Positions 6,201 through 25,318 of a DNA stretch of 64,000 bases are shown here, piece after piece. Position 1 is the stretch's first letter. Each line of letters opens with the position of its first letter. This DNA comes from Mycobacterium noviomagense (GTDB taxonomy: Bacteria > Actinomycetota > Actinomycetes > Mycobacteriales > Mycobacteriaceae). The stretch lies in contig NZ_AP022583.1 in assembly GCF_010731635.1 (NCBI RefSeq), positions 1,922,001-1,986,000 of the forward strand. The letters run 5' to 3'. A model generated the notes under the pieces. It was not told where the DNA came from. It ran no database searches and saw only the letters and a list, made by a program, of their open reading frames with translations. The translations under genes were made by a program, and so were the position numbers.

Positions 6201-6203
6201 GCA

Positions 6204-7841: not shown

Positions 7842-7955
7842 CACCGCGCTGCAATCCTGCCTTCAGGCCGGCGAATCTCTGCCGATCCGGACCCCAAACG
7901 GATACCGTCCATTCATGGCAAGACGCCAACGCTCGCCGGTGAAGAGGAGACAGCC

Positions 7956-8183: not shown

Positions 8184-8231
8184 GTAGCGCGCGCCTATCG
8201 CGTCGAGACAGAGCCAGGGCTGTAAACTGCG

Positions 8232-8984: not shown

Positions 8985-8995
8985 GTCGATCTCTA

Positions 8996-9451
8996 GTGAG
9001 CTGGTGGACCGCGCAGGCCGAACGGACATTCACCGAAACGGTACCGGCCGCGCCCGAGCAGGTCCGTACGTTCTATGTCAACTTGGAGAACATGAAGCTG
9101 GTGCACCCGTTGGTCGTCGCAGTGCGGTCGACATCGCGGCGGAACACCGGCGATGGGTATATCCAAAGCTATCGGGTAACAGACCGGATCCGATTCGGGC
9201 CACTCGGTATTCGCATCAACTACCGCGCACGGCTCCAGGTTCCGGTGCACGGCGATGTGATCACGGAGGCCCGCCAGTTCCCCGGTGTCCGGCTACGCGG
9301 CGCAGTGACATTCGAGCCGATTCAGGTCGGCACCCGGATCATCGAGCGAATCCACATCTCAGCGCCCCGACCGCTGGCGGCAGTGACGATCCGCCAGGCA
9401 GCCAACGCACACATCGCGATGTTGGCAGGCATTCGACACCGTTTCGAGTGA
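8996..9451 (+). CDS. SRPBCC (START/polyketide-cyclase fold) protein
   Basis: 151 residues from GTG 8996, 11 bases after the enoyl-CoA hydratase stop, so the two are probably cotranscribed. FTETVPAAPEQVRTFYVNLENM is the typical first strand and helix of the SRPBCC ligand-binding fold. Strands follow around VTFEPIQVGTRIIERIHISAP, and a long C-terminal helix ends the protein (AVTIRQAANAHIAMLAGIRHR). Such proteins bind hydrophobic ligands or assist polyketide cyclisation. No catalytic residue is evident. The gene ends convergently 22 bases from an acyl-CoA ligase on the other strand. Assignment is by fold pattern only. Confidence 0.7.
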   Translation: MSWWTAQAERTFTETVPAAPEQVRTFYVNLENMKLVHPLVVAVRSTSRRNTGDGYIQSYRVTDRIRFGPLGIRINYRARLQVPVHGDVITEARQFPGVRLRGAVTFEPIQVGTRIIERIHISAPRPLAAVTIRQAANAHIAMLAGIRHRFE

Positions 9452-11722: not shown

Positions 11723-13322
11723 CCGTATTCGTGAGTGCCTCTTTGATTCGATGCTTCAGCACCTTGCCCGCGTCGTTCTTCGGCAGCGAATCGCAGATAA
11801 CCACCTGCTCCGGCGCCTTGAACGTCGCCACTCCACGCTCCTGCAGAAAACTGCGCAGGCCGACCACGTCAGGCCCGGGTGCGGCGGTGGGCACGATTGC
11901 GGCGCAGGCCCGCTCGCCGGTGTGGGCGTCCGGCAGGCCAACGATGGCGATTTCGGCGATACCGGGGTGGCCGACGAGGATGTCCTCGATTTCTTTGGGC
12001 GAGATGTTTTCGCCGTTGCGGATGATGACGTCCTTGGCCCGGCCGGTGACGACAAGGTATTCGCCGTCGACCCAGCAGCCCAGATCGCCGGTGCGCAAAT
12101 AGCCGTCGGCGTCGAACGAATCCGTCTCGTCTTCCGAATGCAGATATCCGAGCAGCATCTGCGGCCCGCGGACAAGAATTTCGCCGCCGACAGCAGCGGC
12201 TTCGTGAGCCAGCTTGACCTCGGCCAAGCCTGGGCGGCCGTCGGTGTCGGCGGCGTGGTCAACGTCGTCCGGCGACCCGATTGTGGTGATCGGGACTTCT
12301 GTGGAGCCATAAACCCGGGTAACGGTAGCGCGCTCGAAATAGCCTGCCGCCCGCCGGATCAGCGACGGCGGCACCGACGCACCGCCGCACACGAATACCT
12401 TCAGTTCGGGCAGCCGAGTGCCGGCGCGCTGCGCGGCGGTGAGCATCTGCTGCAAGAACGGGGTAGCACCAGCGATGTGCGTACAGCGCTCGGATTGCAT
12501 CAGCCGCACCGCCTCGTCGGCGTTCCAGCGATCCATCAGCACCGCCGTGGTGCCTAGCAGCAGCGGGCACTCGAAAGCATAAATGGAGCCGCCGATGTGC
12601 GCGATCGGCGACGCAACCAGGAACCGGTCGCCCTGGTCGACCAGCCAGGGGTCGCGAATCTGGCAGATCAGCGCATGTATCGAATTATGGCTGTGCAAAA
12701 CACCTTTCGGGCGACCCGCGGTGCCAGACGTGTACAGGATCATGCGTACCGCATCGGGCTCCAGTACCGGCAGCTCGGCTGCCGTAGACGGTCGGTCGAG
12801 CAGCGACGTAAACGACGTGTGCCGGTCGTGCTCGCCCCGAACGACGACGACATGGGGAGGCGACGCCAGCTGTGCGCTCACCCGCGTCAGCATCGACGCG
12901 AAGTCGTAGCCGCCGAAGCGGAACGGCACGAACACCATTCGCGCGTCGACGTCCTCCAATATGAAACGCAGCTCGCGGTCGCGCAGCGACGGAAGAATGG
13001 GATTGACCACCATTCCCGCCAACGTCGCCGCCAGGTAGATGACGGTGGCTTCATGCCAGTTCGGCAGCATGAACGACACCACGTTGCCCACCGGCATCCG
13101 GTCCAACAACGCGTGTGCCAAGCTCGTCGCCTGCTGGTAGAGCGTGCGGCAGTCCAGGCGGACGTCGCCGTCGACCACCAGCACCCGCTGCGGAGAATCC
13201 TGCGCCGCTTCTTGCAACGCGTCGGCCAGGGTGTGACGCACCCACACGCCGCGAGCATATGCGTCGGATGCGATTTCCTCGTCCCAGCGGACCGACCGTC
13301 CGCCGATTAGCCGTCTAGCCAC
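11715..13322 (-). CDS. Acyl/alicyclic-acid CoA ligase, AliA/FadD type
   Basis: 535 residues from GTG 13322 (VARRLIGGRSVRWDEE); the open frame continues upstream to GTG 13379, so the start is uncertain. Visible motifs are the P-loop ILYTSGTAGRPKGVLHSH (about residue 195), SPIAHIGGSIY, YGSTEVPITTI (about 340), RTGDLGCWVDGEY, GRAKDVIIRNGENISPKE and the terminal KNDAGKVLKHRIKE lysine region. The overall look is that of cyclohexanecarboxylate-CoA ligase-like enzymes. It starts the three-gene minus-strand operon. It lies 108 bases downstream of the GntR gene, with an inverted repeat in between, so co-transcription with the GntR/lactonase arm is possible but may be reduced by that structure. Confidence 0.85.
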   Translation of the reverse strand: MARRLIGGRSVRWDEEIASDAYARGVWVRHTLADALQEAAQDSPQRVLVVDGDVRLDCRTLYQQATSLAHALLDRMPVGNVVSFMLPNWHEATVIYLAATLAGMVVNPILPSLRDRELRFILEDVDARMVFVPFRFGGYDFASMLTRVSAQLASPPHVVVVRGEHDRHTSFTSLLDRPSTAAELPVLEPDAVRMILYTSGTAGRPKGVLHSHNSIHALICQIRDPWLVDQGDRFLVASPIAHIGGSIYAFECPLLLGTTAVLMDRWNADEAVRLMQSERCTHIAGATPFLQQMLTAAQRAGTRLPELKVFVCGGASVPPSLIRRAAGYFERATVTRVYGSTEVPITTIGSPDDVDHAADTDGRPGLAEVKLAHEAAAVGGEILVRGPQMLLGYLHSEDETDSFDADGYLRTGDLGCWVDGEYLVVTGRAKDVIIRNGENISPKEIEDILVGHPGIAEIAIVGLPDAHTGERACAAIVPTAAPGPDVVGLRSFLQERGVATFKAPEQVVICDSLPKNDAGKVLKHRIKEALTNTDG

Positions 13323-13353
13323 ATCCCACCGTGACAACGTGGATCGAGCTGCC

Positions 13354-13410
13354 CGAGTGTGCGGTTTCGTACGCGACACGCCGCTGGGGGCGTCCAGATC
13401 CGCACACTCG
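13354..13410. repeat. Intergenic inverted repeat with 11-bp perfect arms
   Basis: CGAGTGTGCGG at 13354-13364 is exactly matched by its reverse complement CCGCACACTCG at 13400-13410. The 35-base loop itself contains partly complementary GC-rich stretches (GACACGCC and GGGGCGTC). The element fills most of the 107-base gap between the GntR gene and the CoA ligase, both transcribed leftward. It could act as an attenuating hairpin between the two transcription units, or be a copy of a small dispersed palindromic repeat. There is no T-tract. Confidence 0.6.
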
Positions 13411-13429
13411 CGGACACCGCCGGCTCACC

Positions 13430-14170
13430 CTAACCCCGCACCCGTCGCATCGTCATCGCATGACGAAACCGCGATCCTGGATGGGTATTGATCGTCACCT
13501 GGGCGACCTCTCCATCGGACGTGGTGTATCTGCGGTGGATTTCCAAGGCCGGGGTTCCCGCCTCCACCTTGAGCGCGGTCGCCAGTTCCGGCCCGATCGA
13601 CACCGCGGCGATCTCCTGGTCGACCTCCACGATGCTCAACCCGAACAGGTCCTCGATCAACGGGAAGATTGGCCCGGTGTGGCGTTGCAGCAGTCGGCCC
13701 ACCGCGGCGAACGCCCGGTTGATGTAGTACTCCGTGCGGCAGAGCGGAATCTCCGCACCGTCGGTCTGCCGAAAGCCTTGGACGCTCAACCATTCTTCAC
13801 CGCGGGCAAGGCCGGTCCGTTCGGCCAGCTCCGCGTCGATCGTCACCATCTTCACCGATTCGATCGCAAAACGGGCGCCGGTGGCGAAGGCTAGCAGGTC
13901 GTTGATCGACACGACGTCCTGCACGTAGGAGTCGGCAGACGCGCGGGGCACCACGAGGGTGCCGGTTCGCGGTCGCGACGACACCAAGTTGTCGTCACGC
14001 AGCCGTCGCAGCGCCTCCCGCACTGTGTAGCGGCTGACCGAAAACCGCTGAGACAGCTCATGTTCGGTGGGAAGTTGCGATCCGACCGGGTATACACCGT
14101 CCACGATCTCTTTGCGCAGCGTTCGCGCCACCTGCAGATAGCGGTGGTCGGCCGGTCGAGTATCAGGCAT
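13430..14170 (-). CDS. GntR-family transcriptional regulator (HutC-like)
   Basis: 246 residues from ATG 14170. The N-terminal winged helix is clear: YLQVARTLRKEIVDGVYPVG, LPTEHELSQRFSVSRYTVREALRRL (helix-turn-helix, about residues 32-56) and a wing SSRPRTGTLVVP. The C-terminal part (about 85-240) fits the UTRA ligand-binding domain of the HutC subfamily, with TEYYINRAF and a final strand GEVAQVTINT. Its start overlaps the end of the lactonase-like gene by eight bases, so it is cotranscribed with that enzyme. HutC-type regulators usually bind GT-N-AC-type palindromes. Two such sites lie in the divergent promoter region at 15774-15958. It is the likely effector-responsive repressor of the whole cluster. 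Confidence 0.87.
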   Translation of the reverse strand: MPDTRPADHRYLQVARTLRKEIVDGVYPVGSQLPTEHELSQRFSVSRYTVREALRRLRDDNLVSSRPRTGTLVVPRASADSYVQDVVSINDLLAFATGARFAIESVKMVTIDAELAERTGLARGEEWLSVQGFRQTDGAEIPLCRTEYYINRAFAAVGRLLQRHTGPIFPLIEDLFGLSIVEVDQEIAAVSIGPELATALKVEAGTPALEIHRRYTTSDGEVAQVTINTHPGSRFRHAMTMRRVRG

Positions 14171-15773
14171 GACGATCGCCTTCCCGCCGAAACGCAAGCA
14201 CACTGCCCTCGCCGTCGGCCGACACGTACAGCGTGCCGTCCGGCCCGGCCGCGATGCCGGCGAACGGCCCTTGCGGCCCGGAGAACGGCGGCATGCCGCG
14301 CAGCGGCTTGGGCACGACGCCGGGCGGGGCCCCGACCGGTAGCTCGGACGCAATGGTGTGCCTGACGCCGGTGTCAAGATCCACGGCGAGCAGCTCCTTG
14401 GCATCGGCATCGACGACGTACAGCTGCCCATCGCGCACCAGGACCCCCTGCGGGCGGCGCAAACCGTCCAGCACAGACTCGGTGCCGCCGTGGCTGACGG
14501 TGACCACCCGCCCAGCACCTGATTCGGAGACCAGGCAACGGCCGTCGGCAGCGATCGCCACCCCGACCGGTTCGCGCAAACCGTGGGCGAGCACCTCGAC
14601 GTGCCCGTCGCGGACGCACAGCACTCGACCGGTTCCCAGTTCCGCGACCACGGCTGCACCATCGGGGGCGAGCGCAACGCCGTACAGCTGATCGAAACCG
14701 TCTGCGAGAACGTCGCTTTCGCTATCAGCAGGTCGGTATCGCGACACCTGCCCGCCGGACGTGGTGACCACGAACTCGCCCGCACCCGCGGGGGTAATCC
14801 CGCGTAAAAAGCCCGGATAGCCCGGCGTGAACAGCATCCCAAGCGTCTGCAACCCCCCGTCGGGAACCAGGGCGTAGAAGAAGGTCCCGTCGGCGACATA
14901 GAGATTGCCGTCATCGCCGACTGCCAGGCCCAGCGGCCAGTTCAAGCCGCCCGGCAACACGGTGTGGGTTGCTCCGCCGTCGCGGATTTCAGTGATCTGC
15001 CCGGTGAAATTCGAGACGAACAACCGATCGCCCACGAACGTCAAGTTGTCCAATCCAGGACTCAGTTGAGCCAGCACGCGGCGCTCGCCGGTGCGGGGAT
15101 CGATACGCAGCACCTGTCCGCTGGCCACCTGGGTCGAGACGATCCGGCCCGCGGAATCGAACTTGACCGCATCGGGGACACCAAGCTCGGAGGCCACCCG
15201 TTGCGGCTGCCCGCCATCGGGATCTATCCGCCAGATCTCGTTGGCGCCCATCACCGGGAAGTACAGCAGGCCGTCCGGACCGACCTCCATGGCATTGGGC
15301 GACGGCACATCCTCCAGCAGCACCCGCGGTGCACCGCCGCTGCGATCCAGCTCCAGAAGACGCCCACCTTCCCGGCATTCACCGATGAACAACCGGCCTT
15401 GGTGGACGGTGATGCCGTTGGCACACGGGACGTCGTCGCGCAGCACCCGAGTACGGCCGTCGGTCCCGCGCACGCTGACCCGCCCGTCCATCACCTCGGT
15501 GGCATAGAGGTTGCCGCGCGGGTCGAACGCCACGTCGTCGGGGGCGATGATGTCGCCGCCTTTGACGCTGACGGTGTCCAGCTCGCCGGTTTCGATGTCA
15601 AGCGCGCTGATCTGGCTGCCAGTCACCTGAGCGATGTAGATACGCCCGTCCGGGCCGGTGCGCAGGCCGTTGGCGCCGAACAGTCGGCTCGGCTCCGTGA
15701 GCCGGGTCAAGCTCCAGCCTTCTGCCACGACGGGCGAACCCGGCACCGGGTAACGGCTCTGCTGCGACAACAT
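14163..15773 (-). CDS. SMP-30/NHL-type beta-propeller, candidate lactonase
   Basis: 536 residues from ATG 15773 (MLSQQSRYPVPGSP). The sequence is built of repeated blades of the form GPDGRIYIAQ..., DPRGNLYATE..., GPDGLLYFPV..., GDDGNLYVAD..., APDGAAVVAE..., ADGRCLVSE... and GPDGTLYVSA. There are at least ten such units, so it may form two propellers or one plus an extension. The SMP-30/gluconolactonase/Drp35 and NHL families share this architecture, and many members hydrolyse lactones with a bound metal. No signal peptide is evident. It heads the leftward operon with the GntR gene and is divergent from the Rieske/BVMO operon. That setting makes hydrolysis of a Baeyer-Villiger lactone an attractive inferred role. 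Confidence 0.75.
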   Translation of the reverse strand: MLSQQSRYPVPGSPVVAEGWSLTRLTEPSRLFGANGLRTGPDGRIYIAQVTGSQISALDIETGELDTVSVKGGDIIAPDDVAFDPRGNLYATEVMDGRVSVRGTDGRTRVLRDDVPCANGITVHQGRLFIGECREGGRLLELDRSGGAPRVLLEDVPSPNAMEVGPDGLLYFPVMGANEIWRIDPDGGQPQRVASELGVPDAVKFDSAGRIVSTQVASGQVLRIDPRTGERRVLAQLSPGLDNLTFVGDRLFVSNFTGQITEIRDGGATHTVLPGGLNWPLGLAVGDDGNLYVADGTFFYALVPDGGLQTLGMLFTPGYPGFLRGITPAGAGEFVVTTSGGQVSRYRPADSESDVLADGFDQLYGVALAPDGAAVVAELGTGRVLCVRDGHVEVLAHGLREPVGVAIAADGRCLVSESGAGRVVTVSHGGTESVLDGLRRPQGVLVRDGQLYVVDADAKELLAVDLDTGVRHTIASELPVGAPPGVVPKPLRGMPPFSGPQGPFAGIAAGPDGTLYVSADGEGSVLAFRREGDRHA

Positions 15774-15809
15774 CCTCGGCGACCTCCGCGATACTCCCGC
15801 CCAGCATAT

Positions 15810-15821
15810 TCGTCCAGACAA
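15810..15821. promoter_or_regulatory. Candidate GntR operator, site 1
   Basis: TCGTCCAGACAA matches the perfect palindrome at 15906-15917 in 10 of 12 positions. It lies 37 bases upstream of the lactonase-like start codon. The centre-to-centre distance to site 2 is 96 bases. Assignment to the neighbouring GntR protein is inferred from position and symmetry. Confidence 0.55.
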
Positions 15822-15905
15822 TACCCGCGGAGCCTTCTAGCGGTAGTCCTTGACGGCGGACCGCATGCGGAGAATCATGTTCTCAATTGCGTATATAAGG
15901 CTATC

Positions 15906-15917
15906 TTGTCCGGACAA
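15906..15917. promoter_or_regulatory. Candidate GntR operator, site 2 (perfect palindrome)
   Basis: TTGTCCGGACAA is a perfect 12-bp palindrome, 41 bases before the GTG of the SDR gene, just after an AT-rich GTATATAAGG that could be a -10 region (15891-15900). HutC-type GntR proteins bind sites of this shape. Together with site 1 it frames the divergent promoter region. Confidence 0.65.
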
Positions 15918-15958
15918 TTAGCAGCCGGACCGTTCGGCGCGGGTGGAAGCGGGTATTG

Positions 15959-16810
15959 GTGGCGGCAGACGACCTCCTGAGTCTCGAGGGCCGCATCGTC
16001 GTGGTGTCGGGTGCCGCGGGGGGCGGCATCGGCACCACCGTGACGAGGATGCTCGCCCAGGCGGGAGCGACGGTGATCGCGGTGAGCCGGTGTCGAGACA
16101 ACCTCGACCGGCACATTGGGCCGCTTACGGCACAGGGCTTGCCGATCGTGTCGGTCGCGGCCGACGCATCCACCGACGAGGGTGTGGCAGCCACCGTGGA
16201 CGCGGCGCGACGTACCGAAGGCGCTTTGCACGGGCTCGTCAACGTCGCGGGCGGTGCGGCACCGACCACCTGGATGCCGGCCACGCGGGTAACCCGATCG
16301 GATTGGCAGCAGCTGTTCCGAGACAATCTCGAAACGACGTTCTTCATGAGCCAGGCGATCGCCGCCGAGCTGAAGGCGCAGAAACGCCAAGGCTCGATCG
16401 TGTCGATCTCCTCGATCAGCGGCATGAATACCGCGCCGTTCCACATCGCCTACGGCACCGCAAAAGCGGCGATCGTCGCGATGACCCGCACGATGGCGGT
16501 CGAACTGGCCCTGGACGGCATCCGGGTCAACGCCGTGGCTCCGGGGGTCACCGAAACACCGGCTTCCGGCACGTATGTCGACGACGACCCGGAGCGGGAC
16601 CGTCGCGCCATCGCAATGGGACGACGGGGCCGCCCGGACGAAATCGCCGGCGCCATCCTGTTTTTGATCTCGGATCTCTCCAGCTATATCACCGGCCAGA
16701 CGCTGCTGGTCGACGGCGGGCTCGACCTCAAGTGGACCCATCTGGACGCCGACAACACGTCGCTGTTTCTCAAGGACGAGTCGTTCCGAGCGGCGCTAAG
16801 GAGCATGTGA
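15959..16810 (+). CDS. Short-chain dehydrogenase/reductase, first gene of the oxygenase operon
   Basis: 283 residues from GTG 15959 (TTG 15956 directly before it is an alternative), with GGTGGAAG upstream. SDR landmarks are VVSGAAGGGIGTTV (cofactor loop, about residues 15-28), LVNVAGGAAP in place of the usual NNAG, SISSISGM (Ser), YGTAKAAI (Tyr/Lys, about 165-169) and TGQTLLVDGG. A C-terminal extension of about 30 residues (LKWTHLDADNTSLFLKDE) goes beyond the usual end. Its TGA overlaps the ATG of the Rieske gene by one base. It would be expected to oxidise an alcohol made by the oxygenase, or a diol, to a ketone. The substrate is inferred from context only. Confidence 0.85.
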   Translation: MAADDLLSLEGRIVVVSGAAGGGIGTTVTRMLAQAGATVIAVSRCRDNLDRHIGPLTAQGLPIVSVAADASTDEGVAATVDAARRTEGALHGLVNVAGGAAPTTWMPATRVTRSDWQQLFRDNLETTFFMSQAIAAELKAQKRQGSIVSISSISGMNTAPFHIAYGTAKAAIVAMTRTMAVELALDGIRVNAVAPGVTETPASGTYVDDDPERDRRAIAMGRRGRPDEIAGAILFLISDLSSYITGQTLLVDGGLDLKWTHLDADNTSLFLKDESFRAALRSM

Positions 16811-18180
16811 TGACTGACACCGAAGTCCAAGCAGCCGAAGAGCTTTCCGCGCCGGTGACGATCGGCGTCGATGCCTACCTGTCCGAGGAGTATGCGCGCG
16901 CCGAGCGCGACAAACTGTGGCGCAAGGTATGGCAGCAGGTCGGGCGGGTCGAAGATCTCCCCACAGTCGGCAGCTACCTGACCTACGACATTCTCGACGA
17001 TTCCATCGTGGTCGTGCGCACGGGGCCCGACACGTTCAAGGCCCACCACAACGTCTGCATGCACCGTGCCCGCCGACTGGTCGACACCCCGGAGGGGGCC
17101 AAAAACGCGTGTGGCCGCAAGAAGTCGTTCGTCTGCGGATTCCACGGCTGGACATACGACCTGGACGGCAGCTGTATCCATGTGCCCGAGAAGCAGGACT
17201 GGCAGGGTGCGCTGACACCGCAGAACACCCATCTGGCGCCGGTCAACGTCGACACCTGGGGCGGCTGGGTGTGGATCAACATGGACCCCGACTGCGAGCC
17301 GCTGCGGGACTATCTCGAACCCGCCGCCACCATGCTCGACCCGTTCCAGCTGGACAAGATGCGGTGTAAATGGCGCAAATGGCTGCATTTCCAATGCAAT
17401 TGGAAAGTCGCAATGGAGGCCTTCAACGAGACCTACCATGTCGCGACGACACATCCGCAGTTCAACAAGTTCGGCACCTTTCGCGGCTGGGCCAAGGCGC
17501 ACGGCCGGCACAGCAACATCGGTTACGACGCGCCGAAGGACCTGGAGAAGACCAAATCCAAGATCCGGCTCGGCACCGGCGCCGACCCGCGCATCTCCAC
17601 TGCGGAAATGCAGGTCTACACCTTGGAGGAAACCAACGCCACCACCACCAAGACGCTGGCCGACGCGGCGCGCCGACTGGTCGACGAACTACCCGAAGGC
17701 ACCCCGGCCGACCAGGTGCTCGAGCACTGGCTGTCGTCGGCTCGCCGCGACGACGCAGCCCGCGGCGTGATCTGGCCGACCATCGATCCCGAACACCTCG
17801 CCAAGAGTGGGACCGCATGGCAGATTTTTCCGAACTTCCAGATCGGGCAGGGCTTGACCACCGCCCTGTGCTACAGCGCCCGCCCGTACGGCTACGACCC
17901 GAATATGTGCCTCTTCGAGGCATCCTGCTACGAGCTCTACCCGGAAGGCCAAGAGCCTCATCCAGAGTGGGAGTATCTTCCGCCCGATGACCCCAACTGG
18001 CGGACGGTGTTTCCGCAGGACTTCTCCAACATGGCCGCAGTGCAGCAAGGCATGAAATCACTTGGCTTCACAGGCACAAAACCCAACCCCTACATGGAAC
18101 GCAGCACCGCCAACCTGCACCGCAACCTCGCCGAGTACATGGGTACCGGCGCACCGCGCGAACTGGGTAACGAAAGCTGA
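16810..18180 (+). CDS. Rieske non-heme iron oxygenase, large (alpha) subunit
   Basis: 456 residues from ATG 16810 (MTDTEVQAAEELS). The Rieske [2Fe-2S] ligands are visible as CMH (NVCMHRARRL, about residue 82) and CGFHGWTYD (about 112), with a 25-30-residue spacing. The mononuclear iron site motif is EAFNETYHVATTH (about 203-215), giving the two His; the Asp ligand is expected later. The protein is a ring-hydroxylating or C-H hydroxylating oxygenase of the aromatic dioxygenase alpha-subunit group. No small subunit, ferredoxin or reductase is encoded in the cluster, so electrons must come from elsewhere. It is sandwiched between an SDR (one-base overlap) and a Baeyer-Villiger monooxygenase (two-base gap). 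Confidence 0.9.
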   Translation: MTDTEVQAAEELSAPVTIGVDAYLSEEYARAERDKLWRKVWQQVGRVEDLPTVGSYLTYDILDDSIVVVRTGPDTFKAHHNVCMHRARRLVDTPEGAKNACGRKKSFVCGFHGWTYDLDGSCIHVPEKQDWQGALTPQNTHLAPVNVDTWGGWVWINMDPDCEPLRDYLEPAATMLDPFQLDKMRCKWRKWLHFQCNWKVAMEAFNETYHVATTHPQFNKFGTFRGWAKAHGRHSNIGYDAPKDLEKTKSKIRLGTGADPRISTAEMQVYTLEETNATTTKTLADAARRLVDELPEGTPADQVLEHWLSSARRDDAARGVIWPTIDPEHLAKSGTAWQIFPNFQIGQGLTTALCYSARPYGYDPNMCLFEASCYELYPEGQEPHPEWEYLPPDDPNWRTVFPQDFSNMAAVQQGMKSLGFTGTKPNPYMERSTANLHRNLAEYMGTGAPRELGNES

Positions 18181-18182
18181 CT

Positions 18183-20015
18183 ATGGACTGCCCACCGACG
18201 CAGACTCCCGACGACATCGACATCGACGCGCTGCGGGAAAAATACCGGCACGAGCGCGACAAGCGGCTGCGCGCCGAAGGCTCCAAGCAATACGTCGAAC
18301 TGACCGGGGAATTCGCCGACTTCTACGAAACCGACCCGCACACACCGTTCGTCCCCCGGGAGCCGATCTCGGCGGATATCGACGTTGCCGTGCTCGGCGG
18401 CGGCTTCGCCGGACTACTGTGCGCCGCGCACCTGAAACGAGCCGGCGTCGACGACGTCCGGATCATCGAGCTGGGCGGCGACTTCGGCGGCGTCTGGTAC
18501 TGGAACCGCTTCCCAGGAATCCAGTGCGACAACGAGTCCTATTGCTACGTTCCGCTGCTCGAAGAGCTCAACTACATCCCCTCGAAGAAATTCGCGGACG
18601 GCACCGAGATCTACGAGCATTGCCGCAGAATCGGAAAGCACTACGGCCTCTACGATGCCGCGATCTTCTCCACCCTGGTTCGCGAACTGCACTGGGACGA
18701 CGAGATCAAACGCTGGCGGATCGGTACCAAGCGCGACGACGACATCCGCGCCCGCTTCGTCGTCATGGCGTCGGGCAACTTCCACCGGCCGAAGCTGCCG
18801 GGCATCCCCGGAATCAAGGACTTCAAGGGACACAGCTTTCACTCGTCGCGGTGGGACTACGACTACACCGGCGGCGACGCCACCGGCGGGCTGGACAAGC
18901 TGCACGACAAGCGGGTCGCGATCGTCGGCACCGGCGCCACCGCCATCCAGGTAATCCCGTTCCTGGGCCGCTACACCAAGCACCTCTACGTCTTTCAGCG
19001 CACACCCTCAACCGTCGACGAGCGCAACAACATCCCAACCGATCCGGCGTGGGTGGCGTCGTTGCAGCCCGGATGGCAGAAGGAGCGGCAACGCAACTTC
19101 CATGCCTGGACCTTCGAAGGTGGCGCACCCGGCCAGCCCGACCTCGTCTGCGACTTCTGGACCGAACTCGGACGCAACACCGCCGCAAGGATTCTCGCGC
19201 TGGAAAACCCGGCCACAGTCACCCCCGAGCAATTCATGGCGATACGGGAAGAAGAAGACTACAAGGTGATGGAGCGGCTGCGCCGCCGCATCGAGGCCGT
19301 CGTCGAAGACAAGCAAACCGCCGAGATGCTCAAACCCTACTACCGGTTCCTGTGCAAGCGGCCCTGCTCCAACGACGACTACCTGCCGACCTTCAACCGA
19401 CCGAACGTCACGCTGGTCGATGTCTCGGCATCAAAAGGCGTCGAAAAGGCCACCGAAAAGGGCTTGGTGGCCAACGGTATCGAATACGAAGTCGACTGCA
19501 TTATCTACGCGAGCGGTTTCGAGATCACCACCGACATCAGCCGCCGCTACAGCATCGAGACGATCGAAGGCCGCGACGGCGTATCGCTGTTCGACTACTG
19601 GCGCGACGGTTTCCGTACCTTGCACGGCATGACCAGCCGCGGCTTTCCCAACCAGTTCTACACCGGCTTCACCCAAGTCGGTGTGTCGGCGAACATCAGC
19701 GCCAACTACGAGCTGCAAGGCGAACACATCGCCTACATCATCGCGCAGACCATGGCGCGCGGCGCGACGACCGTCGAACCCACCCAAGAGGCCCAGGACC
19801 AGTGGTGCCGGACCATCCGCGAGACCGCCGTCGACAACAGCCAATTCGAAATGGAGTGCACTCCGGGCTATTACAACAACGAGGGCGGCGGAGGCGGCGA
19901 GGGGATCCGCTCGCATCTCGGGGAACCGTATGGTCCTGGGTTCTACGCGTTCGGTGACCTGTTGGCCGAGTGGCGCGCAAAGGGCGACCTCGACGGCCTC
20001 ATCCTCGGCGCATGA
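18183..20015 (+). CDS. Type I Baeyer-Villiger monooxygenase (FAD, NADPH)
   Basis: 610 residues from ATG 18183. A helical N-terminal extension (ALREKYRHERDKRL) precedes the FAD dinucleotide loop VLGGGFAGLLCA (about residues 70-80). The BVMO fingerprint FxGxxxHxxxW(P/D) appears as FKGHSFHSSRWD (about 214-225), and the NADPH loop as IVGTGATAIQ (about 245-254). Length and extension resemble the cyclopentadecanone/steroid-type BVMOs rather than the about 540-residue cyclohexanone enzymes. That suggests bulky or large-ring ketones, but this is inference. The reaction inserts oxygen next to a ketone to give an ester or lactone. Its stop overlaps the next ATG (ATGA), so the two are coupled. Confidence 0.9.
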   Translation: MDCPPTQTPDDIDIDALREKYRHERDKRLRAEGSKQYVELTGEFADFYETDPHTPFVPREPISADIDVAVLGGGFAGLLCAAHLKRAGVDDVRIIELGGDFGGVWYWNRFPGIQCDNESYCYVPLLEELNYIPSKKFADGTEIYEHCRRIGKHYGLYDAAIFSTLVRELHWDDEIKRWRIGTKRDDDIRARFVVMASGNFHRPKLPGIPGIKDFKGHSFHSSRWDYDYTGGDATGGLDKLHDKRVAIVGTGATAIQVIPFLGRYTKHLYVFQRTPSTVDERNNIPTDPAWVASLQPGWQKERQRNFHAWTFEGGAPGQPDLVCDFWTELGRNTAARILALENPATVTPEQFMAIREEEDYKVMERLRRRIEAVVEDKQTAEMLKPYYRFLCKRPCSNDDYLPTFNRPNVTLVDVSASKGVEKATEKGLVANGIEYEVDCIIYASGFEITTDISRRYSIETIEGRDGVSLFDYWRDGFRTLHGMTSRGFPNQFYTGFTQVGVSANISANYELQGEHIAYIIAQTMARGATTVEPTQEAQDQWCRTIRETAVDNSQFEMECTPGYYNNEGGGGGEGIRSHLGEPYGPGFYAFGDLLAEWRAKGDLDGLILGA

Positions 20016-20938
20016 TGGCTGAACTCAAGTTCGACGATCGGGTAGCCGTCATAACCGGGGCGGGCCGCGGACTTGGCCGTGCCTACGCGCTGTTGCTGGC
20101 GTCGAAAGGAGCCAAAGTCGTTGTCAACGACATCGGCGCCAGCCTGACGGGGAACGGTGTCGACGCCGGACCCGCGCAAGCTGTTGTGGACGAGATCAGG
20201 GCAGCCGGCGGGGAAGCGGTCGCGTGCACGGAAACCGTTGCGACACCGGACGGCGGCAAGGCGATCATTGAGGCGGCTCTCGATCACTACGGACGTATCG
20301 ACATCCTCATCCACAATGCAGGCAACGTCCGTCGGGCGTCGTTGAAAGCGATGAGCTCCGACGATTTCGATGCGGTCATCGATGTTCATCTGCGGGGCGC
20401 CTTCCATGTGGTGCGGCCCGCGTTCCCGTTGATGTGCGCCACGCACTACGGCCGCATCGTCTTGACGTCGTCGATCGGCGGGCTCTACGGCAACCACGGC
20501 GTTGCGAACTACGCCGCCGCCAAGGCCGGCGTTATCGGGTTGTCCAATGTCATCGCGCTGGAGGGCGCCGCCGAGGGTGTGCAGTGCAACGTCATCGTGC
20601 CGGCGGCAGAGTCGCGGATGGCCGAAGGCATTGACACGTCGGCCTACCCGCCGTGGGGCCCGGAGCTGGTGGCGCCGGTGGTGGGCTGGCTGGCCCACGA
20701 ATCCTGTTCGATCACCGGCGAAATTTTGATTGCCCTCGCCGGGCGGGTGGCCAAAGCCGTTGTTGCCGAGAGCCCTGGCGTGTATCGCCCGTCATGGTCG
20801 GTTGAGCAAGTTGGCGAAGACATCGACGCGATCCGCGACATGACGTCGCCGATGGTGTTTCCGGCCGTTCCCGACGGTCACGTCGAGCACATCCGCTACA
20901 GCTTCGAGATGGCCCGGGCCGAGGCCCGCTATGGCTAG
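20012..20938 (+). CDS. Short-chain dehydrogenase, MFE-2 (3-hydroxyacyl-CoA dehydrogenase) type
   Basis: 308 residues from ATG 20012, overlapping the BVMO stop by four bases. Key features are the cofactor loop ITGAGRGLGRAYAL, VVVNDIGASLTGNG with the Asp that favours NAD, HNAGNVRR, LTSSIGGLYGN (Ser) and NYAAAKAGVIGL (Tyr/Lys, about residues 166-170). The VVNDIG segment followed by a long loop up to AVVDEI is typical of the dehydrogenase part of peroxisomal multifunctional enzyme 2 and its mycobacterial homologues, which act on (3R)-hydroxyacyl-CoAs. The extended C-terminus (YRPSWSVEQVGEDIDAIRD) also fits that group. A side-chain beta-oxidation step is therefore likely. Its last eight bases overlap the CoA-transferase gene. 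Confidence 0.85.
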   Translation: MMAELKFDDRVAVITGAGRGLGRAYALLLASKGAKVVVNDIGASLTGNGVDAGPAQAVVDEIRAAGGEAVACTETVATPDGGKAIIEAALDHYGRIDILIHNAGNVRRASLKAMSSDDFDAVIDVHLRGAFHVVRPAFPLMCATHYGRIVLTSSIGGLYGNHGVANYAAAKAGVIGLSNVIALEGAAEGVQCNVIVPAAESRMAEGIDTSAYPPWGPELVAPVVGWLAHESCSITGEILIALAGRVAKAVVAESPGVYRPSWSVEQVGEDIDAIRDMTSPMVFPAVPDGHVEHIRYSFEMARAEARYG

Positions 20939-22160
20939 CGCGACCGGGCCGCTGGCCGGAGTGCGGGTGCTCGATCTGACCGCGATGGTGATGGGCCCCT
21001 ACTGCACCCAGATCATGGCCGACATGGGCGCTGACGTGATCAAAGTCGAGCCGCCGGAGGGCGATACGACCCGCTACATTTCGGTCGGACCGGTGCCCGG
21101 GATGAGCGGTGTCTTCGTCAACGTCAACCGCGGCAAGCGCAGCGTCGTCTTGGATCTGCAGACCGAAGCCGGCAAGACCGCGCTGCGGGCGCTGATCGAA
21201 ACCGCGGACGTGTTCATCCATTCGATGCGCGCCAAGGCGATCGCTCGGCTCGGATTCAGTTATGACGAGGTCGTCGCCGTCAACCCGGCCATCATCTACA
21301 CCAACTGCTACGGCTACGGCCGGCGCGGGCCCGACCGCGACCTGCCCGCCTATGACGACACCATCCAGGCCGAATGCGGGTTGCCCGCTGTCCAAAAGCA
21401 ATTGACCGGCGAGGCAAGCTATGTCGGCACGATCATGGCCGACAAAGTGGCCGGCCTGACGGCGCTCTACGCCACCATGATGGCGCTGTTTCACCGCGAA
21501 CGAACCGGCCAAGGGCAAGAGGTCGAGGTCAGCATGTTCGAGACCTTGGCCTCGTTCATGCTCGTCGAGCACGCCAACGGCGCCATCTTCGATCCGCCGC
21601 TCGGGCCCGCCGGCTACCCTCGAGCCTTGGCACCCAACCGGCGGCCCTACCGCACCAGCGACGGCTATATCGCCGCGCTGATCTACACCGACAAACATTG
21701 GGCCGCTTTCATCGACGCCGTGCGGCCCGCCTGGGCCAGCGACCAGTACGCGACACTCGAGCAGCGAGCACGCCAGATCGACTCCGTTTACGCCTTGGTG
21801 GCCGAGACAATGCAGGAGCGGACCACCGAGGAGTGGTTGAAGCTGTTCCGCGAGCTGGAGATACCTGCTGCGCCGATCCGCACACCGGGTGCACTGTTCG
21901 ACAACCCGCAACTCAACGCTGTCGGGTTGTTCGAGACCGTCGACACCCCGCACGGTCGGATGCGCTTTCCCGGTGTGCCGACGTGGTTTTCGCGCACACC
22001 GGGCCGCGTCGCCGGCCCGGCACCGGAGCTGGGTGCAGACACCAGCGCGGTGCTCGACGAAGTTGGCCTGGCACCAGTTAGCGCGAGCAGACGCAAAAGC
22101 ACCGGACACGCCGACGGAAAAGAGGCTTTTGCGTCTGCTCGCCCACGAAAGGAGACGTGA
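20931..22160 (+). CDS. Family III CoA-transferase (CaiB/BaiF/Frc)
   Basis: 409 residues from ATG 20931. Family III features are GPLAGVRVLDLTAMVMGPYC at the start, ADMGADVIKVEPPEGD with the conserved KVE, NRGKRSVVLDL, and PAYDDTIQAECG, where the catalytic Asp of the family is expected (about residue 146). EVSMFETLASF follows. These enzymes exchange CoA between acids. The protein should end near LDEVGLAP, but the frame continues for about 30 residues through an 18-bp inverted repeat (22083-22142), giving a tail with no family look. The gene overlaps the SDR before it and meets the ThDP gene after it, so it is mid-operon. Confidence 0.87.
   Translation: MASATGPLAGVRVLDLTAMVMGPYCTQIMADMGADVIKVEPPEGDTTRYISVGPVPGMSGVFVNVNRGKRSVVLDLQTEAGKTALRALIETADVFIHSMRAKAIARLGFSYDEVVAVNPAIIYTNCYGYGRRGPDRDLPAYDDTIQAECGLPAVQKQLTGEASYVGTIMADKVAGLTALYATMMALFHRERTGQGQEVEVSMFETLASFMLVEHANGAIFDPPLGPAGYPRALAPNRRPYRTSDGYIAALIYTDKHWAAFIDAVRPAWASDQYATLEQRARQIDSVYALVAETMQERTTEEWLKLFRELEIPAAPIRTPGALFDNPQLNAVGLFETVDTPHGRMRFPGVPTWFSRTPGRVAGPAPELGADTSAVLDEVGLAPVSASRRKSTGHADGKEAFASARPRKET
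22083..22142. repeat. 18-bp perfect inverted repeat overlapping the CoA-transferase 3' end
   Basis: GCGAGCAGACGCAAAAGC at 22083-22100 is the exact reverse complement of 22125-22142, with a 24-base loop. It lies inside the last 30 codons of the CoA-transferase gene and just before the ribosome site of the next gene. It looks like an inserted palindromic element that extended the reading frame. The same arm motif is, from memory, common in mycobacterial intergenic DNA, but that was not checked. Confidence 0.75.
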
Positions 22161-22162
22161 CG

Positions 22163-23869
22163 ATGGGCGTACCGGTCTACAAGCGCATTCTCGATCTGTT
22201 CGAGGTCGAGGGCGTGAACACGCTGTTCGGCATCCCCGACCCGAACTTCGTGCACATGTTCCGTGAAGCCGAAGCGCGTGGCTGGACGGTGGTTGCGCCG
22301 CATCACGAGGAAAGCGCGGGCTTCATGGCCGAAGCGGTGTCGCGCATGACCGGCAAGCCCGGTCTGTGCATCGGCACGCTGGGGCCCGGTGTGGCCAACC
22401 TGGCCGGAGCGATGATGTGCGCCAAGGTCGAAAACTCGCCGGTGATCTTCCTCGGCGGCCAGCGGGCACGCATCACTGAACGTCGAGTGCGCCGCGGACG
22501 CATCCAATTCGTCCAGCAGGAACGGCTTTTCGCGCCGTCGGTCAAGTTCAGCGCCTCGATCGAGTACGCCGACCAGACCGACGAGCTCGTGCACGAGGCC
22601 ATCCGGCGTGCGATGTCCGGTACCCCGGGCCCGGCCTACATCGAATACCCCGCGCACGTGATCACCCAAGAGCTCGAGGTGGCAGAACCGTTGTCGCCCA
22701 ACGCCTACCGGCTCGTCAACCAGGGCGCCGGCGCGCCGGAGATCGCTCGAGCGGCGGCGCTGATCCGCGACGCCAAGGCGCCGATCCTGCTGGTCGGTCA
22801 CGCTGTGCACACGTCACGCAGCGGTCCTGCGGTCAAGGCGCTCGCCGATGTGATGGCGTGCCCGGTGATCCAGACCTCCGGCGGCACTTCGTTCATTGCT
22901 GGGCTTGAAGACCGCACCTTCCCTTACGGTTTCTCGTCGGCGGCGGTCGAGGCGGTGGTCACATCGGATCTATGCGTGGCACTCGGAACCGAGCTCGGTG
23001 AACCCGTCCATTACGGCACCACCCGCCACTGGGCCGACAACAACGCCCACCGCAAATGGATCTACGTCGAGCAGGACCCGTTGGCGATCGGAGTGAACCG
23101 GCCGGTCGACGTGGCGCTGGTGGGAGACCTGCGTGGCGTCGTGCCCCAACTGATCGAGGCACTCAGAGACAAACCACGCACACCGTCGGCCGATCTCGAA
23201 CGCTGGATCAAACAGGACGTCGAGCACGTGGCCGAACTGGCCGAAACCGCGCCGAGCGGCCAAACCCCCATCCACACGGCACGTTTCGTGGTCGAAGCGA
23301 CCAAGGCCTTCCCGAAGGCCGGCATCATGGTGCGTGACGGCGGCGCCACGGTCATCTTCCAGTGGACCTATTCACAGGCCAAGCCGCACGACGTCATCTG
23401 GAACCAGAACTTCGGCCACCTCGGCACCGGGCTGCCCTACGCGGTCGGCGCGTCGGTCGCCGACGGCGGCAAGCGGCCGGTCATGCTGCTGACCAGCGAC
23501 TCGTCGTTCCTGTTCCATATCGCTGAACTGGAGACCGCCGCGCGGCTGAAACTGCCGTTGGTCTGTGTGGTCGGCGTCGACCACCAGTGGGGCCTCGAAG
23601 TCGGGGTCTACAAGCGCACCTTCGAGCAGCCGTCGTCACAGCCGGGCGTGCACTGGAGCAAGAACGTGCGCTTCGACAAGATCGCCGAGGGGCTGGGCTG
23701 CCACGGCGAGTACGTCGAGAAAGACGACGACATCGCCCCGGCAATCAAACGGGCCTACGCGAGCGGCAGACCCGCTGTCGTCCATGTCTGCATCGATCCC
23801 AAAGTCAATTCGGAAGAAATGCCCAACTACGGCGAATTCAGAACCTGGTACGCCGAGGGAACTCAGTAG
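22163..23869 (+). CDS. ThDP-dependent enzyme (acetolactate synthase / 2-hydroxyacyl-CoA lyase superfamily)
   Basis: 568 residues from ATG 22163, eight bases after AAAGGAG; GTG 22157 is less well placed. The three-domain layout fits this superfamily. The N-terminal PYR domain has the catalytic Glu in HHEESAGFMAEAV (about residue 48). A central Rossmann-like domain includes APILLVGHAVHTS. The C-terminal PP domain has FGHLGTGLPYAVGA. The usual Mg/ThDP motif GDGSF...N is replaced by SDSSFLFHIAELETA: the first Asp is kept, but both glycines and the Asn are changed. It could be a decarboxylase, carboligase or lyase. Next to a CoA-transferase and an aldehyde dehydrogenase, an acyl-CoA lyase giving an aldehyde is a reasonable guess. 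Confidence 0.82.
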   Translation: MGVPVYKRILDLFEVEGVNTLFGIPDPNFVHMFREAEARGWTVVAPHHEESAGFMAEAVSRMTGKPGLCIGTLGPGVANLAGAMMCAKVENSPVIFLGGQRARITERRVRRGRIQFVQQERLFAPSVKFSASIEYADQTDELVHEAIRRAMSGTPGPAYIEYPAHVITQELEVAEPLSPNAYRLVNQGAGAPEIARAAALIRDAKAPILLVGHAVHTSRSGPAVKALADVMACPVIQTSGGTSFIAGLEDRTFPYGFSSAAVEAVVTSDLCVALGTELGEPVHYGTTRHWADNNAHRKWIYVEQDPLAIGVNRPVDVALVGDLRGVVPQLIEALRDKPRTPSADLERWIKQDVEHVAELAETAPSGQTPIHTARFVVEATKAFPKAGIMVRDGGATVIFQWTYSQAKPHDVIWNQNFGHLGTGLPYAVGASVADGGKRPVMLLTSDSSFLFHIAELETAARLKLPLVCVVGVDHQWGLEVGVYKRTFEQPSSQPGVHWSKNVRFDKIAEGLGCHGEYVEKDDDIAPAIKRAYASGRPAVVHVCIDPKVNSEEMPNYGEFRTWYAEGTQ

Positions 23870-23881
23870 GAGGATGGCTTC

Positions 23882-25318
23882 ATGCGCGAATATGTGAAGT
23901 TCTACATCGATGGTCAGTGGGTCGATCCCGTGCGACCTAACCCTTTCGACATCGAAAATCCCGCTACTCAACAGATCACCGGCAAAATCTCACTTGGTTC
24001 GGCCGCCGACGTCGACGTGGCGGTGAATGCGGCCCGAAGGGCGTTCGCCACATGGTCGCAAAGCAGCCGCGAAGAGCGCCTTGATCTTCTGCAAGCGATT
24101 CTCGCGGAATACCAAAGACGCGCTGACGACCTTGCAGGAGCAGTGACGGAGGAGATGGGTGCGCCGCCATCGTTGGCCGCTGGGCCGCAGGTGCAGCTCG
24201 GCCTCGGTCACCTGATGACTGCCATAGATGTGCTGAAGAACTTTTCGTTCGAGGAACAGCACGGTGCAACCCTGGTGGTCAAGGAGCCGATCGGGGTATG
24301 CGGGCTGATCACACCGTGGAACTGGCCGCTCAACCAGATCGCAGTCAAGGTGTACCCGGCACTGGCGACCGGCTGCACGATGATCTTGAAGCCTTCGGAG
24401 GTTGCGCCCTACTCGGCATACATCTTCACCGAAATCCTCGATGCCGCAGGCGTTCCAGCAGGGGTATACAACCTGGTCAATGGCGACGGCCCGGGCGTGG
24501 GGGTGGCGCTGTCCCGTCACCCCGACATCGACATGGTTTCGTTTACCGGTTCCACCCGCGCCGGCATCGACGTGGCTGCAAACGCCGCCCCGACGGTGAA
24601 GCGAGTGACCCAGGAACTGGGGGGCAAGAGCCCGAACATCGTCCTGGACGATGCGGAATTCGAGAACAGCGTCCGTGCCGGCGTGGTCAACATGATGCTG
24701 AACACCGGCCAGAGCTGTAACGCGCCGTCGCGCATGCTGGTGCCTAAATCACGCATGGCCGAAGCGGTCGCAATTGCCCGCGAAGCCGCCGAACAGGTGA
24801 AGGTCGGCGACCCCGATGACAGCCGTGCAATCGGACCGCTTGCCTCAAGAGCGCAGTTCGACAAGGTTCAGCGCTTGATCCAAAAGGGTATCGACGAGGG
24901 CGCCATGCTGGTCACCGGCGGCACCGGCCGGCCAGATGGACTGGACACCGGCTACTACGTCAAGCCCACCGTCTTTGCCGACGTCACCAATGACATGACC
25001 ATCGCCCGCGAGGAAATCTTCGGGCCGGTGCTGTGCATGATCGGTTACGACGACATCGACCACGCGATCGAAATTGCCAACGACACAGACTACGGTCTGG
25101 CCGGATACGTTTCGGGAGCCGACCTCGACAAGGCGCGCACCGTTGCGCGCCGGATCCGTGCTGGCTGGGTGACAATCAACCACGCCTTCGACATGAACGC
25201 GCCTTTCGGCGGCTACAAGGGAAGCGGCAACGGTCGCGAATGGAGTGAGTTCGGCTTCCACGAGTACTTGGAGATCAAAAGCGTCCTTGGCCACGCGCCC
25301 GAAAAGGCGGCAGGTTAG
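23882..25318 (+). CDS. NAD(P)-dependent aldehyde dehydrogenase
   Basis: 478 residues from ATG 23882, with a strong TAGGAGGATGG site that includes the stop of the ThDP gene. ALDH landmarks are TPWNWPLNQI (about residues 143-152), FTGSTRAG (cofactor loop, about 222), the general-base Glu in QELGGKSPN (about 246) and the catalytic Cys in NTGQSCNAPS (about 280). EEIFGPVL and the final NHAFDMNAPFGGYKGSGNGRE also fit. It oxidises an aldehyde to an acid and is close to the EutE/betaine-type broad ALDHs. As last gene of the operon it would remove the aldehyde made by the ThDP enzyme, or a ring-opened hydroxy-aldehyde. Confidence 0.9.
   Translation: MREYVKFYIDGQWVDPVRPNPFDIENPATQQITGKISLGSAADVDVAVNAARRAFATWSQSSREERLDLLQAILAEYQRRADDLAGAVTEEMGAPPSLAAGPQVQLGLGHLMTAIDVLKNFSFEEQHGATLVVKEPIGVCGLITPWNWPLNQIAVKVYPALATGCTMILKPSEVAPYSAYIFTEILDAAGVPAGVYNLVNGDGPGVGVALSRHPDIDMVSFTGSTRAGIDVAANAAPTVKRVTQELGGKSPNIVLDDAEFENSVRAGVVNMMLNTGQSCNAPSRMLVPKSRMAEAVAIAREAAEQVKVGDPDDSRAIGPLASRAQFDKVQRLIQKGIDEGAMLVTGGTGRPDGLDTGYYVKPTVFADVTNDMTIAREEIFGPVLCMIGYDDIDHAIEIANDTDYGLAGYVSGADLDKARTVARRIRAGWVTINHAFDMNAPFGGYKGSGNGREWSEFGFHEYLEIKSVLGHAPEKAAG

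Follow-up and report, generated by a model that had tools for sequence, protein, structure and literature searches.

What task holds together, in Mycobacterium noviomagense, a divergent set of genes for a GntR regulator, a Rieske oxygenase, a Baeyer-Villiger monooxygenase (BVMO) and a candidate lactonase? The set was noticed at positions 13430-25318 of a 64,000-nucleotide stretch (the window; contig NZ_AP022583.1, positions 1,922,001 to 1,986,000), taken from a genome consisting of a single contig of 4,779,798 bases. The answer favoured here, at a probability of roughly 55%, is that positions 9474-25318 form a single catabolic regulon under GntR control, which serves the breakdown of a bulky alicyclic (terpenoid- or steroid-like) compound and has a lactone branch and an interchangeable carbon-carbon cleavage step. 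Three new observations bear on it: the exchange of a thiamine diphosphate (ThDP)-dependent enzyme and an aldehyde dehydrogenase (ALDH) for a luciferase-like monooxygenase (LLM), a pair of operator-like palindromes between the two arms, and the separate exchange of the BVMO between otherwise close clusters. A previous sequence-only reading of the window had proposed a jointly controlled unit with a lactone-forming BVMO; the first of these ideas is supported and the second agrees with the nearest kin of the enzyme, while its left boundary and its choice of ligases have not stood.

Gene content and conservation of the unit

The features of the unit are given below. Gene identities in 13430-25318 were checked by Pfam, NCBIfam and Protein Data Bank (PDB) matches. 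Fractions out of 80 refer to the named loci, which are the best 80 of at least 576 BVMO-encoding stretches, chosen by BVMO similarity and all titled as genera of the Mycobacteriaceae; contigs ending early were scored as misses.

9474-10979, minus strand: lig1, adenylate-forming (AMP-binding) ligase (Pfam AMP-binding, 2.9e-64), 49/80; start codon uncertain, the open frame extending to 11201
10940-11722, minus strand: SDR0, short-chain dehydrogenase (SDR; Pfam), 72/80
11715-13379, minus strand: lig2, adenylate-forming (AMP-binding) ligase (Pfam AMP-binding, 2.8e-69), 72/80
13430-14170, minus strand: GntR/UTRA (HutC-type) regulator (Pfam GntR 1.7e-20, UTRA 4.1e-18), 72/80
14163-15773, minus strand: the propeller, a double beta-propeller of 536 residues (SMP-30/NHL/ScyD-ScyE type; Pfam SGL, NCBIfam ScyE_fam), candidate lactone hydrolase, 72/80
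15810-15821: operator-like palindrome O1, TCGTCCAGACAA, one mismatch to TTGTCYRGACAA; pair in 69/72 named divergent regions
15850-15884, plus strand: probable promoter core between the operators, with TTGACGG at 15850 and the inverted repeat GAGAATCATGTTCTC at 15870-15884
15906-15917: operator-like palindrome O2, TTGTCCGGACAA, the sole exact TTGTCYRGACAA in the whole genome
15956-16810, plus strand: SDR1, short-chain dehydrogenase, start TTG 15956 or GTG 15959 (Pfam), 77/80
16810-18180, plus strand: Rieske oxygenase alpha subunit (Pfam Rieske and Ring_hydroxyl_A; motifs), 79/80, and 113/148 genomes of the genus
18183-20015, plus strand: type I BVMO (motifs FKGHSFHSSRWD and GGVWYWNRFPGIQCD; PtlE model; PDB 5mq6)
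20015-20938, plus strand: SDR2, long-type SDR of 307 residues (best NCBIfam model PRK07791), 78/80
20931-22160, plus strand: CaiB, family III coenzyme A (CoA)-transferase (Pfam 9.9e-117; best PDB match 10uh), 75/80
22157-23869, plus strand: ThDP-dependent lyase or decarboxylase (Pfam TPP_enzyme N, M and C), 74/148 genomes
23882-25318, plus strand: ALDH, accompanying the ThDP gene (Pfam Aldedh, 4.3e-153)

Within 13430-25318 all genes named by the sequence-only reading are there and each fits its family; its description of them as mostly overlapping or abutting also agrees with the seven same-strand junctions of that span, five of which overlap, with one of 2 bp and one of 12 bp. The left boundary at 13430, on the other hand, had been set too far inwards. 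The minus arm goes on from propeller and GntR through lig2, SDR0 and lig1 (15773 down to 9474), the ends of the last three overlapping each other, and since SDR0 and lig2 recur in 72 and lig1 in 49 of the named loci, 9474-25318 is the better span. Similarly, the nearby ligases that had been invoked for CoA activation can be kept as regards 11715-13379 and 9474-10979, but not as regards the AMP-ligases at 4530-7841, which were rejected as members, just 27-34% matches being found in the named loci. An enoyl-CoA hydratase at 8232-8984 was rejected as well, with no match in the named loci at the thresholds used. Four acyl-CoA dehydrogenase genes, common in relatives and absent from the window cluster, had been overlooked; they occur as pairs in related clusters.

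Judged by gene content, the genes at 9474-25318 are one conserved unit. The sequence-only reading had staked itself beforehand on the genes staying together in other genomes, and the seven-gene core (GntR, propeller, SDR1, Rieske, BVMO, SDR2, CaiB) was found together, over at least 85% of query length, in 70 of the 80 named loci, which exceeds what chance would give. At whole-genome thresholds of 1e-100 for Rieske and propeller, 1e-200 for ThDP, 1e-120 for LLM, 1e-250 for BVMO and 1e-150 for CaiB, the Rieske and propeller genes occupy an identical set of 113 among 148 genomes of the genus. The BVMO is found in 110 of these 113, those without it at 1e-250 being G008, G111 and G144. CaiB, also in 110 of the 113, is linked less tightly than these three, since four further genomes (G026, G029, G063, G138) have it without Rieske. 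In the order as a whole, 39 of 298 genomes contain the Rieske gene at 1e-100, 33 in the genus and six outside it. Ten non-mycobacterial loci (L104-L110, L115-L117) were examined, and five of them (L105, L106, L107, L110 and a plasmid of Rhodococcus sp. USK13) share the compact order propeller-SDR1-Rieske-BVMO-SDR2-ThDP-ALDH; in L104 this order is found with the BVMO missing, L109 and Sphingobium sp. RAC03 hold parts of the cluster in a different order, and L108 has Rieske and BVMO only. Because the compact order recurs in these loci, ThDP and ALDH belong to the wider unit and are no add-on of the window. Thus, the view of one jointly acting unit is supported by co-conservation, by the matching genome distribution and by a shared paired operator that extends to split clusters.

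Exchange of the ThDP/ALDH module for a luciferase-like monooxygenase

An LLM gene is present in 20 of the 80 named loci, in all 20 at one site, between Rieske and BVMO. The protein of L005 has 391 residues, with Pfam Bac_luciferase and, as its nearest PDB chain, 8cbb (alkanal monooxygenase alpha). None of the 20 LLM-bearing loci has the ThDP gene and one (L032) has an ALDH, which looks intact, while the 53 ThDP-bearing loci have no LLM and, in 52 cases, the ALDH, the other locus ending at a contig or stretch end. When the count is limited to the 65 loci whose flanks are long enough, ThDP alone is present in 50 and LLM alone in 15, with none having both and none neither; the remaining 15 (seven with neither, five with LLM, three with ThDP) are uninformative. 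The 148 genomes obey the same rule: ThDP is found in 74 and LLM in 37, the overlap is zero, and all 111 have Rieske. Exactly one of the two is therefore present in 111 of the 113 Rieske-positive genomes, with neither in G059 and G111 (fragmented, 7% contamination), and one or the other in 0 of the 35 Rieske-negative genomes. The window genome has no LLM at 1e-120. No remnant of ThDP turned up in the 19 LLM loci searched for one, where L005 and L009 gave just 30-32% matches, close to their contig ends.

On a core tree (six core genes, 71 rows, FastTree; one row without a ThDP/LLM state), the state changes five times, all five changes being forced by starred branches, which in so quick a tree need careful trust, and LLM and ThDP are opposite in five of five independent pairs. 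These distributions support the view that ThDP plus ALDH and LLM replace each other in the cluster, an exchangeable module that the sequence-only reading had missed. If this exchange rule holds, ThDP (with ALDH) and LLM would serve one step, and two unrelated enzymes apparently stand in for the same carbon-cutting step.

The same exclusivity, together with the BVMO exchange described below, could also arise if two co-inherited cluster haplotypes were moved by recombination, with no functional equivalence. The single LLM site in all 20 loci and the frequent sequence exchange in the locus would fit this idea. Nevertheless, LLM and ThDP flank BVMO, SDR2 and CaiB on opposite sides, the states are scattered on a core tree that contains the SDR2 and CaiB genes, 0 of the 65 informative loci have both or neither, and L032 retains its ALDH with LLM and no ThDP, all of which make such haplotypes an unlikely explanation.

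A probable paired operator between the two arms

The divergent gap between propeller and SDR1 contains two palindromes, at 15810-15821 and 15906-15917, about 96 bp apart. Across 73 divergent regions (window included) O2 is exact in 57, departs from the palindrome at one position in 14 and at two in 2, and a shuffled-region control gave essentially no site within one mismatch. When up to one mismatch is allowed, TTGTCYRGACAA is found as two sites in 69 of the 72 named divergent regions and as one in the other three; the two sites lie 95-97 bp apart in all but one of the 69 paired regions (68), and 108 bp apart in that one. Exact sites over the 80 loci number 69, versus 0 after shuffling. In its own genome the exact TTGTCYRGACAA occurs once, and since the places with one mismatch (8) match the number of a reversed-pattern control (11), as expected by chance, the evidence was restricted to the exact site and the pair. 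Text resembling the promoter core (TTGACGG, inverted repeat) was seen in other divergent regions inspected.

In seven genomes the SDR1-Rieske-BVMO piece lies apart from propeller and ThDP, namely G016, G022, G068 and G072, on one contig each, and G085, G100 and G129, on draft contigs. The distance in G022 is about 3.3 Mb, and gntR is found solely on the propeller piece. The operator pair precedes SDR1 in all seven split genomes checked, 97-98 bp apart, and likewise in the Mycolicibacter locus L050. Moreover, the site is present at the propeller promoters of the split-cluster stretches L127 and L129; the split-cluster stretches without it are L126 (539 bp, contig end) and L128 (ThDP-first arrangement, propeller not reached). 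On a plasmid of M. branderi, the exact site precedes the ThDP gene.

The regulator contains GntR and UTRA domains and scores 101.5 bits against the HutC equivalog, below the cut-off of 220; it is probably the local regulator of the cluster. Since the palindromes bracket the divergent promoters and recur before the detached half, a single regulator probably governs both arms and the split halves, and shared control of the cluster genes is supported by this pattern of sites. The spacing, of about nine helical turns, suggests that GntR plausibly acts by looping between the palindromes.

Some further sites were noted. On the M. branderi plasmid (L119, 5082-5242 and 5291-7352), a pair of sites with one mismatch each lies in front of genes for a P450 and a TauD dioxygenase, and these two may also belong to the regulon. 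Genome G101 apparently has a paralogous cluster: a further, diverged propeller (66%) with an operator pair of its own (L113, 7151-8743) and, in the neighbouring stretch L114, Rieske and GntR genes that have likewise diverged (53% and 56%). One exact TTGTCCGGACAA on the Sphingobium sp. RAC03 plasmid (L116, 9314), 176 bp upstream of a second Rieske gene (7741-9138, minus strand), may be a chance occurrence. In the other-genus loci L105 and L110, which have no TTGTCYRGACAA sites, the GAGAATCATGTTCTC-like GAGAATATCATTCTC lies upstream of the propeller; the inverted repeat GAGAATCATGTTCTC may be the site of a second regulator.

The BVMO: family and separate exchange

Type I BVMOs are recognised by the fingerprints F-x-G-x3-H-x3-W-[PD] and [AG]-G-x-W-x4-[FY]-P-[GM]-x3-D, and the cluster enzyme has both types of motif (FKGHSFHSSRWD at 214 and GGVWYWNRFPGIQCD at 102). 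It aligns with positions 1-585 of 587 of the NCBIfam PtlE (neopentalenolactone D synthase) model at 689.7 bits, under the cut-off of 1100. Its best PDB match is 5mq6 (E 2.5e-124), which we take to be polycyclic ketone monooxygenase, and OTEMO is also among the PDB matches. The enzyme is of type I, and its nearest kin make lactones from bulky ketones.

The BVMO sequences fall into two types, of 28 (window included) and 43 members, forming the series T1 and T2, and their distribution on the core tree needs 12 changes, at least nine of them forced by starred branches. The loci L053 and L028, both titled M. colombiense, illustrate this behaviour: they are mostly 85-98% identical, with lowest windows outside the BVMO of 76% and 80%, and identity is 71-80% across 9901-12000, which is the BVMO. 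Among close pairs, in which identity over the other core genes reaches 90% or more, a fall in identity of more than 10 points was seen for the BVMO in 26/62, for SDR2 in 9/82 and for the propeller in 1/109, and in none for gntR, SDR1, Rieske and CaiB. The correlation with the rest of the locus is 0.354 for the BVMO versus 0.554-0.873 for the others. These comparisons support the swapping of the BVMO alone between otherwise close clusters, another point that the earlier note had missed.

Two other uses of such an enzyme have to be considered. In the first, the BVMO would make an acetate-type ester from an acyclic side-chain ketone (of a steroid or a methyl ketone), and the propeller would be an esterase or a non-catalytic binding protein. 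In the pdc cluster, progesterone is acted on by a BVMO together with an LLM, according to the part of the source available (PMC12239570), the CPDMO-like group is described in an excerpt as broad in scope, steroids included (PMC4052671), and a BVMO step on a methyl ketone is proposed for abscisic acid breakdown in the accessible passages of PMC9599779. However, the nearest kin (PtlE family, 5mq6) act on ring ketones, and the pdc cluster, as far as that partial account goes, consists of four genes, without Rieske, propeller or ThDP gene, which leaves this use improbable. The second is a biosynthetic role, in which the cluster would tailor a terpenoid lactone of mycobacteria, like PtlE in Streptomyces; it draws on the nearest curated BVMO model being the neopentalenolactone D synthase family. 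It is very unlikely: no terpene cyclase was seen within or beside the cluster, the ligases, CaiB, acyl-CoA dehydrogenases and ALDH suit breakdown, and the Rhodococcus sp. USK13 plasmid version adjoins ABC-transporter genes annotated for peptide uptake.

The remaining enzymes

The propeller belongs to the SMP-30/SGL family (Pfam PF08450, 58 bits, cut-off 26.3) and exceeds the ScyE_fam cut-off of NCBIfam (152.9 versus 80). Its AlphaFold2 model has a pLDDT (predicted local distance difference test) of 88.5 and a pTM (predicted template modelling score) of 0.87. The top Foldseek matches are the tandem propellers of LRP6, and as the fit over both domains has a TM (template modelling) score of about 0.37 and a root-mean-square deviation of about 20 Å, only single propellers match well; non-enzymatic propellers score the same as or above enzymatic ones. 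The first half has conserved N35, D79/D80, N119, N160, D201 (16/17) and D242/N243 at equivalent blade positions, where the second half has mostly Gly. The protein may be regarded as a candidate lactone hydrolase, differing from the lactonases of SMP-30/gluconolactonase type (RPA3624, XC5397) in that it has two propellers in one chain of 536 residues.

The Rieske protein is an alpha subunit by its motifs (CMH-x23-CGFH at 83, NETYHVATTH at 206) and scores above the Pfam cut-off. Aligned to 6y9c, it has a Glu at the place of the Glu before the YH motif of carnitine monooxygenase; it scores 114.4 bits against the glycine betaine monooxygenase GbcA equivalog, under the cut-off of 670. SDR2 reaches 229.4 bits against PRK07791 (cut-off 373). 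In eight of the named loci (L045, L061, L062, L067, L071, L075, L080, L081) a TauD/TfdA-type dioxygenase gene forms part of the cluster, as a further optional oxygenase; wherever the order is readable, its place is between BVMO and SDR2. An acyltransferase at 25639-27576, presumably similar to Rv0111 of the M. tuberculosis complex, adjoins the window cluster; since it is also near the cluster in 26 of the 80 named loci, the insertion place is partly conserved.

Among the acetolactate synthase models listed as matches of the ThDP enzyme, the best is PRK08322, at 257.6 bits versus a cut-off of 509. A different, rather doubtful role for it would be that of a 2-hydroxyacyl-CoA lyase in alpha-oxidation: a ligase would form the acyl-CoA, hydroxylation would give the 2-hydroxyacyl-CoA, the ThDP enzyme would release formyl-CoA, the ALDH would oxidise the shortened aldehyde, and CaiB would pass CoA from formyl-CoA to the new acid. 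The best PDB match of CaiB, 10uh, is indeed named formyl-CoA transferase, its gene overlaps the ThDP gene in the window, structures of oxalyl-CoA decarboxylase and 2-hydroxyacyl-CoA lyase/synthase are among the top ThDP matches, and the alignment to 7ayg spans the C-terminal IDP...SE stretch. Moreover, an actinobacterial route to formyl-CoA through a CoA-dependent ThDP lyase has been proposed for 2-hydroxyisobutyrate, in the portion of PMC7176365 at hand. Nevertheless, the 2-hydroxyacyl-CoA lyase equivalog NF058623 gives 167.5 bits versus a cut-off of 600, CaiB is present in every LLM cluster long enough to hold it and so is not tied to ThDP, and it is hard to envisage an LLM replacing 2-hydroxyacyl-CoA cleavage.

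Comparison with known systems

In the open-access literature, to which the search was confined, no description of the cluster and no assigned substrate was found. The closest system in logic is the camphor (CAM plasmid) pathway of Pseudomonas putida, of which the cluster is not a member. That pathway has P450 and dehydrogenase steps, and its enzymes include the diketocamphane monooxygenases (LLM-type, Type II BVMOs) and OTEMO (a Type I BVMO). The likeness lies in hydroxylation, ketone formation, CoA activation and two Baeyer-Villiger type steps by an LLM-type and a type I enzyme, as set out in the accessible part of PMC6352141. The cluster differs in having a Rieske enzyme instead of the P450, a BVMO closer to 5mq6 than to OTEMO, a propeller and a GntR/UTRA regulator; its LLM is nearest to bacterial luciferase alpha, with no diketocamphane enzyme among its matches at 1e-10. 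In addition, a camphor-type system would have an LLM-type enzyme and a type I BVMO in every member, whereas here LLM is found in 37 of 113 cluster genomes and the ThDP/ALDH module replaces it in most clusters.

The PtlE/PenE synthases of neopentalenolactone and pentalenolactone D, and CPDMO-like BVMOs, are similar to the cluster enzyme over its full length of about 600 residues, but the latter is under the equivalog cut-off and its cluster context looks catabolic. The progesterone pdc cluster of Caenibius tardaugens likewise combines a type I BVMO with a luciferase-like monooxygenase, and was rejected as a match since its gene set differs: in the excerpt of PMC12239570 it has four genes and two regulators, both enzymes acting side by side on one substrate, while here LLM replaces ThDP/ALDH. 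The lum pathway of riboflavin and lumichrome likewise has ThDP enzymes encoded alongside a Rieske oxygenase in a single catabolic cluster (PMC12752717, in the part available); it was rejected as the answer, no Baeyer-Villiger step or propeller being described in that part. Its ThDP decarboxylase is heteromeric, and the pathway starts with a P450. Abscisic acid breakdown was kept as a candidate substrate route only, no genes being named in the available text of PMC9599779.

Proposed pathway

In the preferred catabolic reading, the substrate, the order of the steps and the lactonase activity of the propeller are what we infer; the route through a lactone is a plausible one. Oxidation of a ring position beside a ring ketone, by the Rieske enzyme and SDR1, would create a 1,2-dicarbonyl or an alpha-keto acid. 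ThDP enzymes cleave a carbon-carbon bond beside a carbonyl, leaving an aldehyde; here that bond would be cut by the ThDP enzyme, with the ALDH oxidising the aldehyde to the acid, or else by the LLM directly, using reduced flavin and oxygen. The first version would be an umpolung hydrolysis followed by dehydrogenation, the second a peroxyflavin oxidation. A 1,2-dicarbonyl or alpha-keto acid is the most likely cleavage substrate, because it is the simplest fit for both ThDP and LLM and would give the same acid product. In another ring, the BVMO would convert a ketone into a lactone, to be opened by the propeller, and would be the part setting substrate or regiochemistry. The ligases and CaiB would form CoA esters, and SDR2, SDR0 and, in relatives, the paired acyl-CoA dehydrogenases would shorten the chain. 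Luciferase-type enzymes introduce oxygen at a carbonyl, so that aldehydes become acids and ketones become esters. In a review, a luciferase is reported to convert dodecanal into the acid and 2-tridecanone into an ester, and bacterial luciferases are grouped with the ketolactonases as Type II BVMOs (accessible part of PMC6352141).

Several points weigh against this catabolic reading. The sign test on the five independent pairs gives p = 0.0625, the lowest value attainable with five pairs. The ThDP enzyme is about as similar to acetolactate synthase as to oxalyl-CoA decarboxylase and to 2-hydroxyacyl-CoA lyase, and passes no equivalog cut-off, so that its reaction is not fixed by sequence, and its AlphaFold2 model was set aside (mean pLDDT 54.4). 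Neither a ferredoxin nor a reductase that could serve the Rieske enzyme was identified among the cluster genes. The palindrome is absent from the other-genus loci checked (L104-L110, L115), and its link with GntR is one that we infer. Besides, SDR2 too shows some exchange, as the 9 of 82 close pairs indicate.

A more specific version, less probable than the reading as a whole, is that ThDP/ALDH and LLM would be non-homologous replacements for one carbon-carbon cleavage of the same ring intermediate, with the BVMO as a stand-alone specificity module, in a loop-operated GntR regulon that is fixed in its other parts and that most of the mycobacteria sampled would use on an abundant alicyclic compound.

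Implications

The all-or-none exchange of ThDP/ALDH and LLM offers a handle on the chemistry, since the step must have a substrate that is suitable for both reactions. The BVMO exchange provides two natural series, T1 and T2, of proteins of about 600 residues in near-identical backgrounds, which are useful for the study of BVMO specificity, and the operator pair permits a screen for inducers without knowing the substrate. Finally, 113 of the 148 species sampled in the genus have the regulon, and relatives of it occur in some further actinobacteria and on plasmids of Sphingobium; the compound that the regulon consumes is probably common where mycobacteria live.

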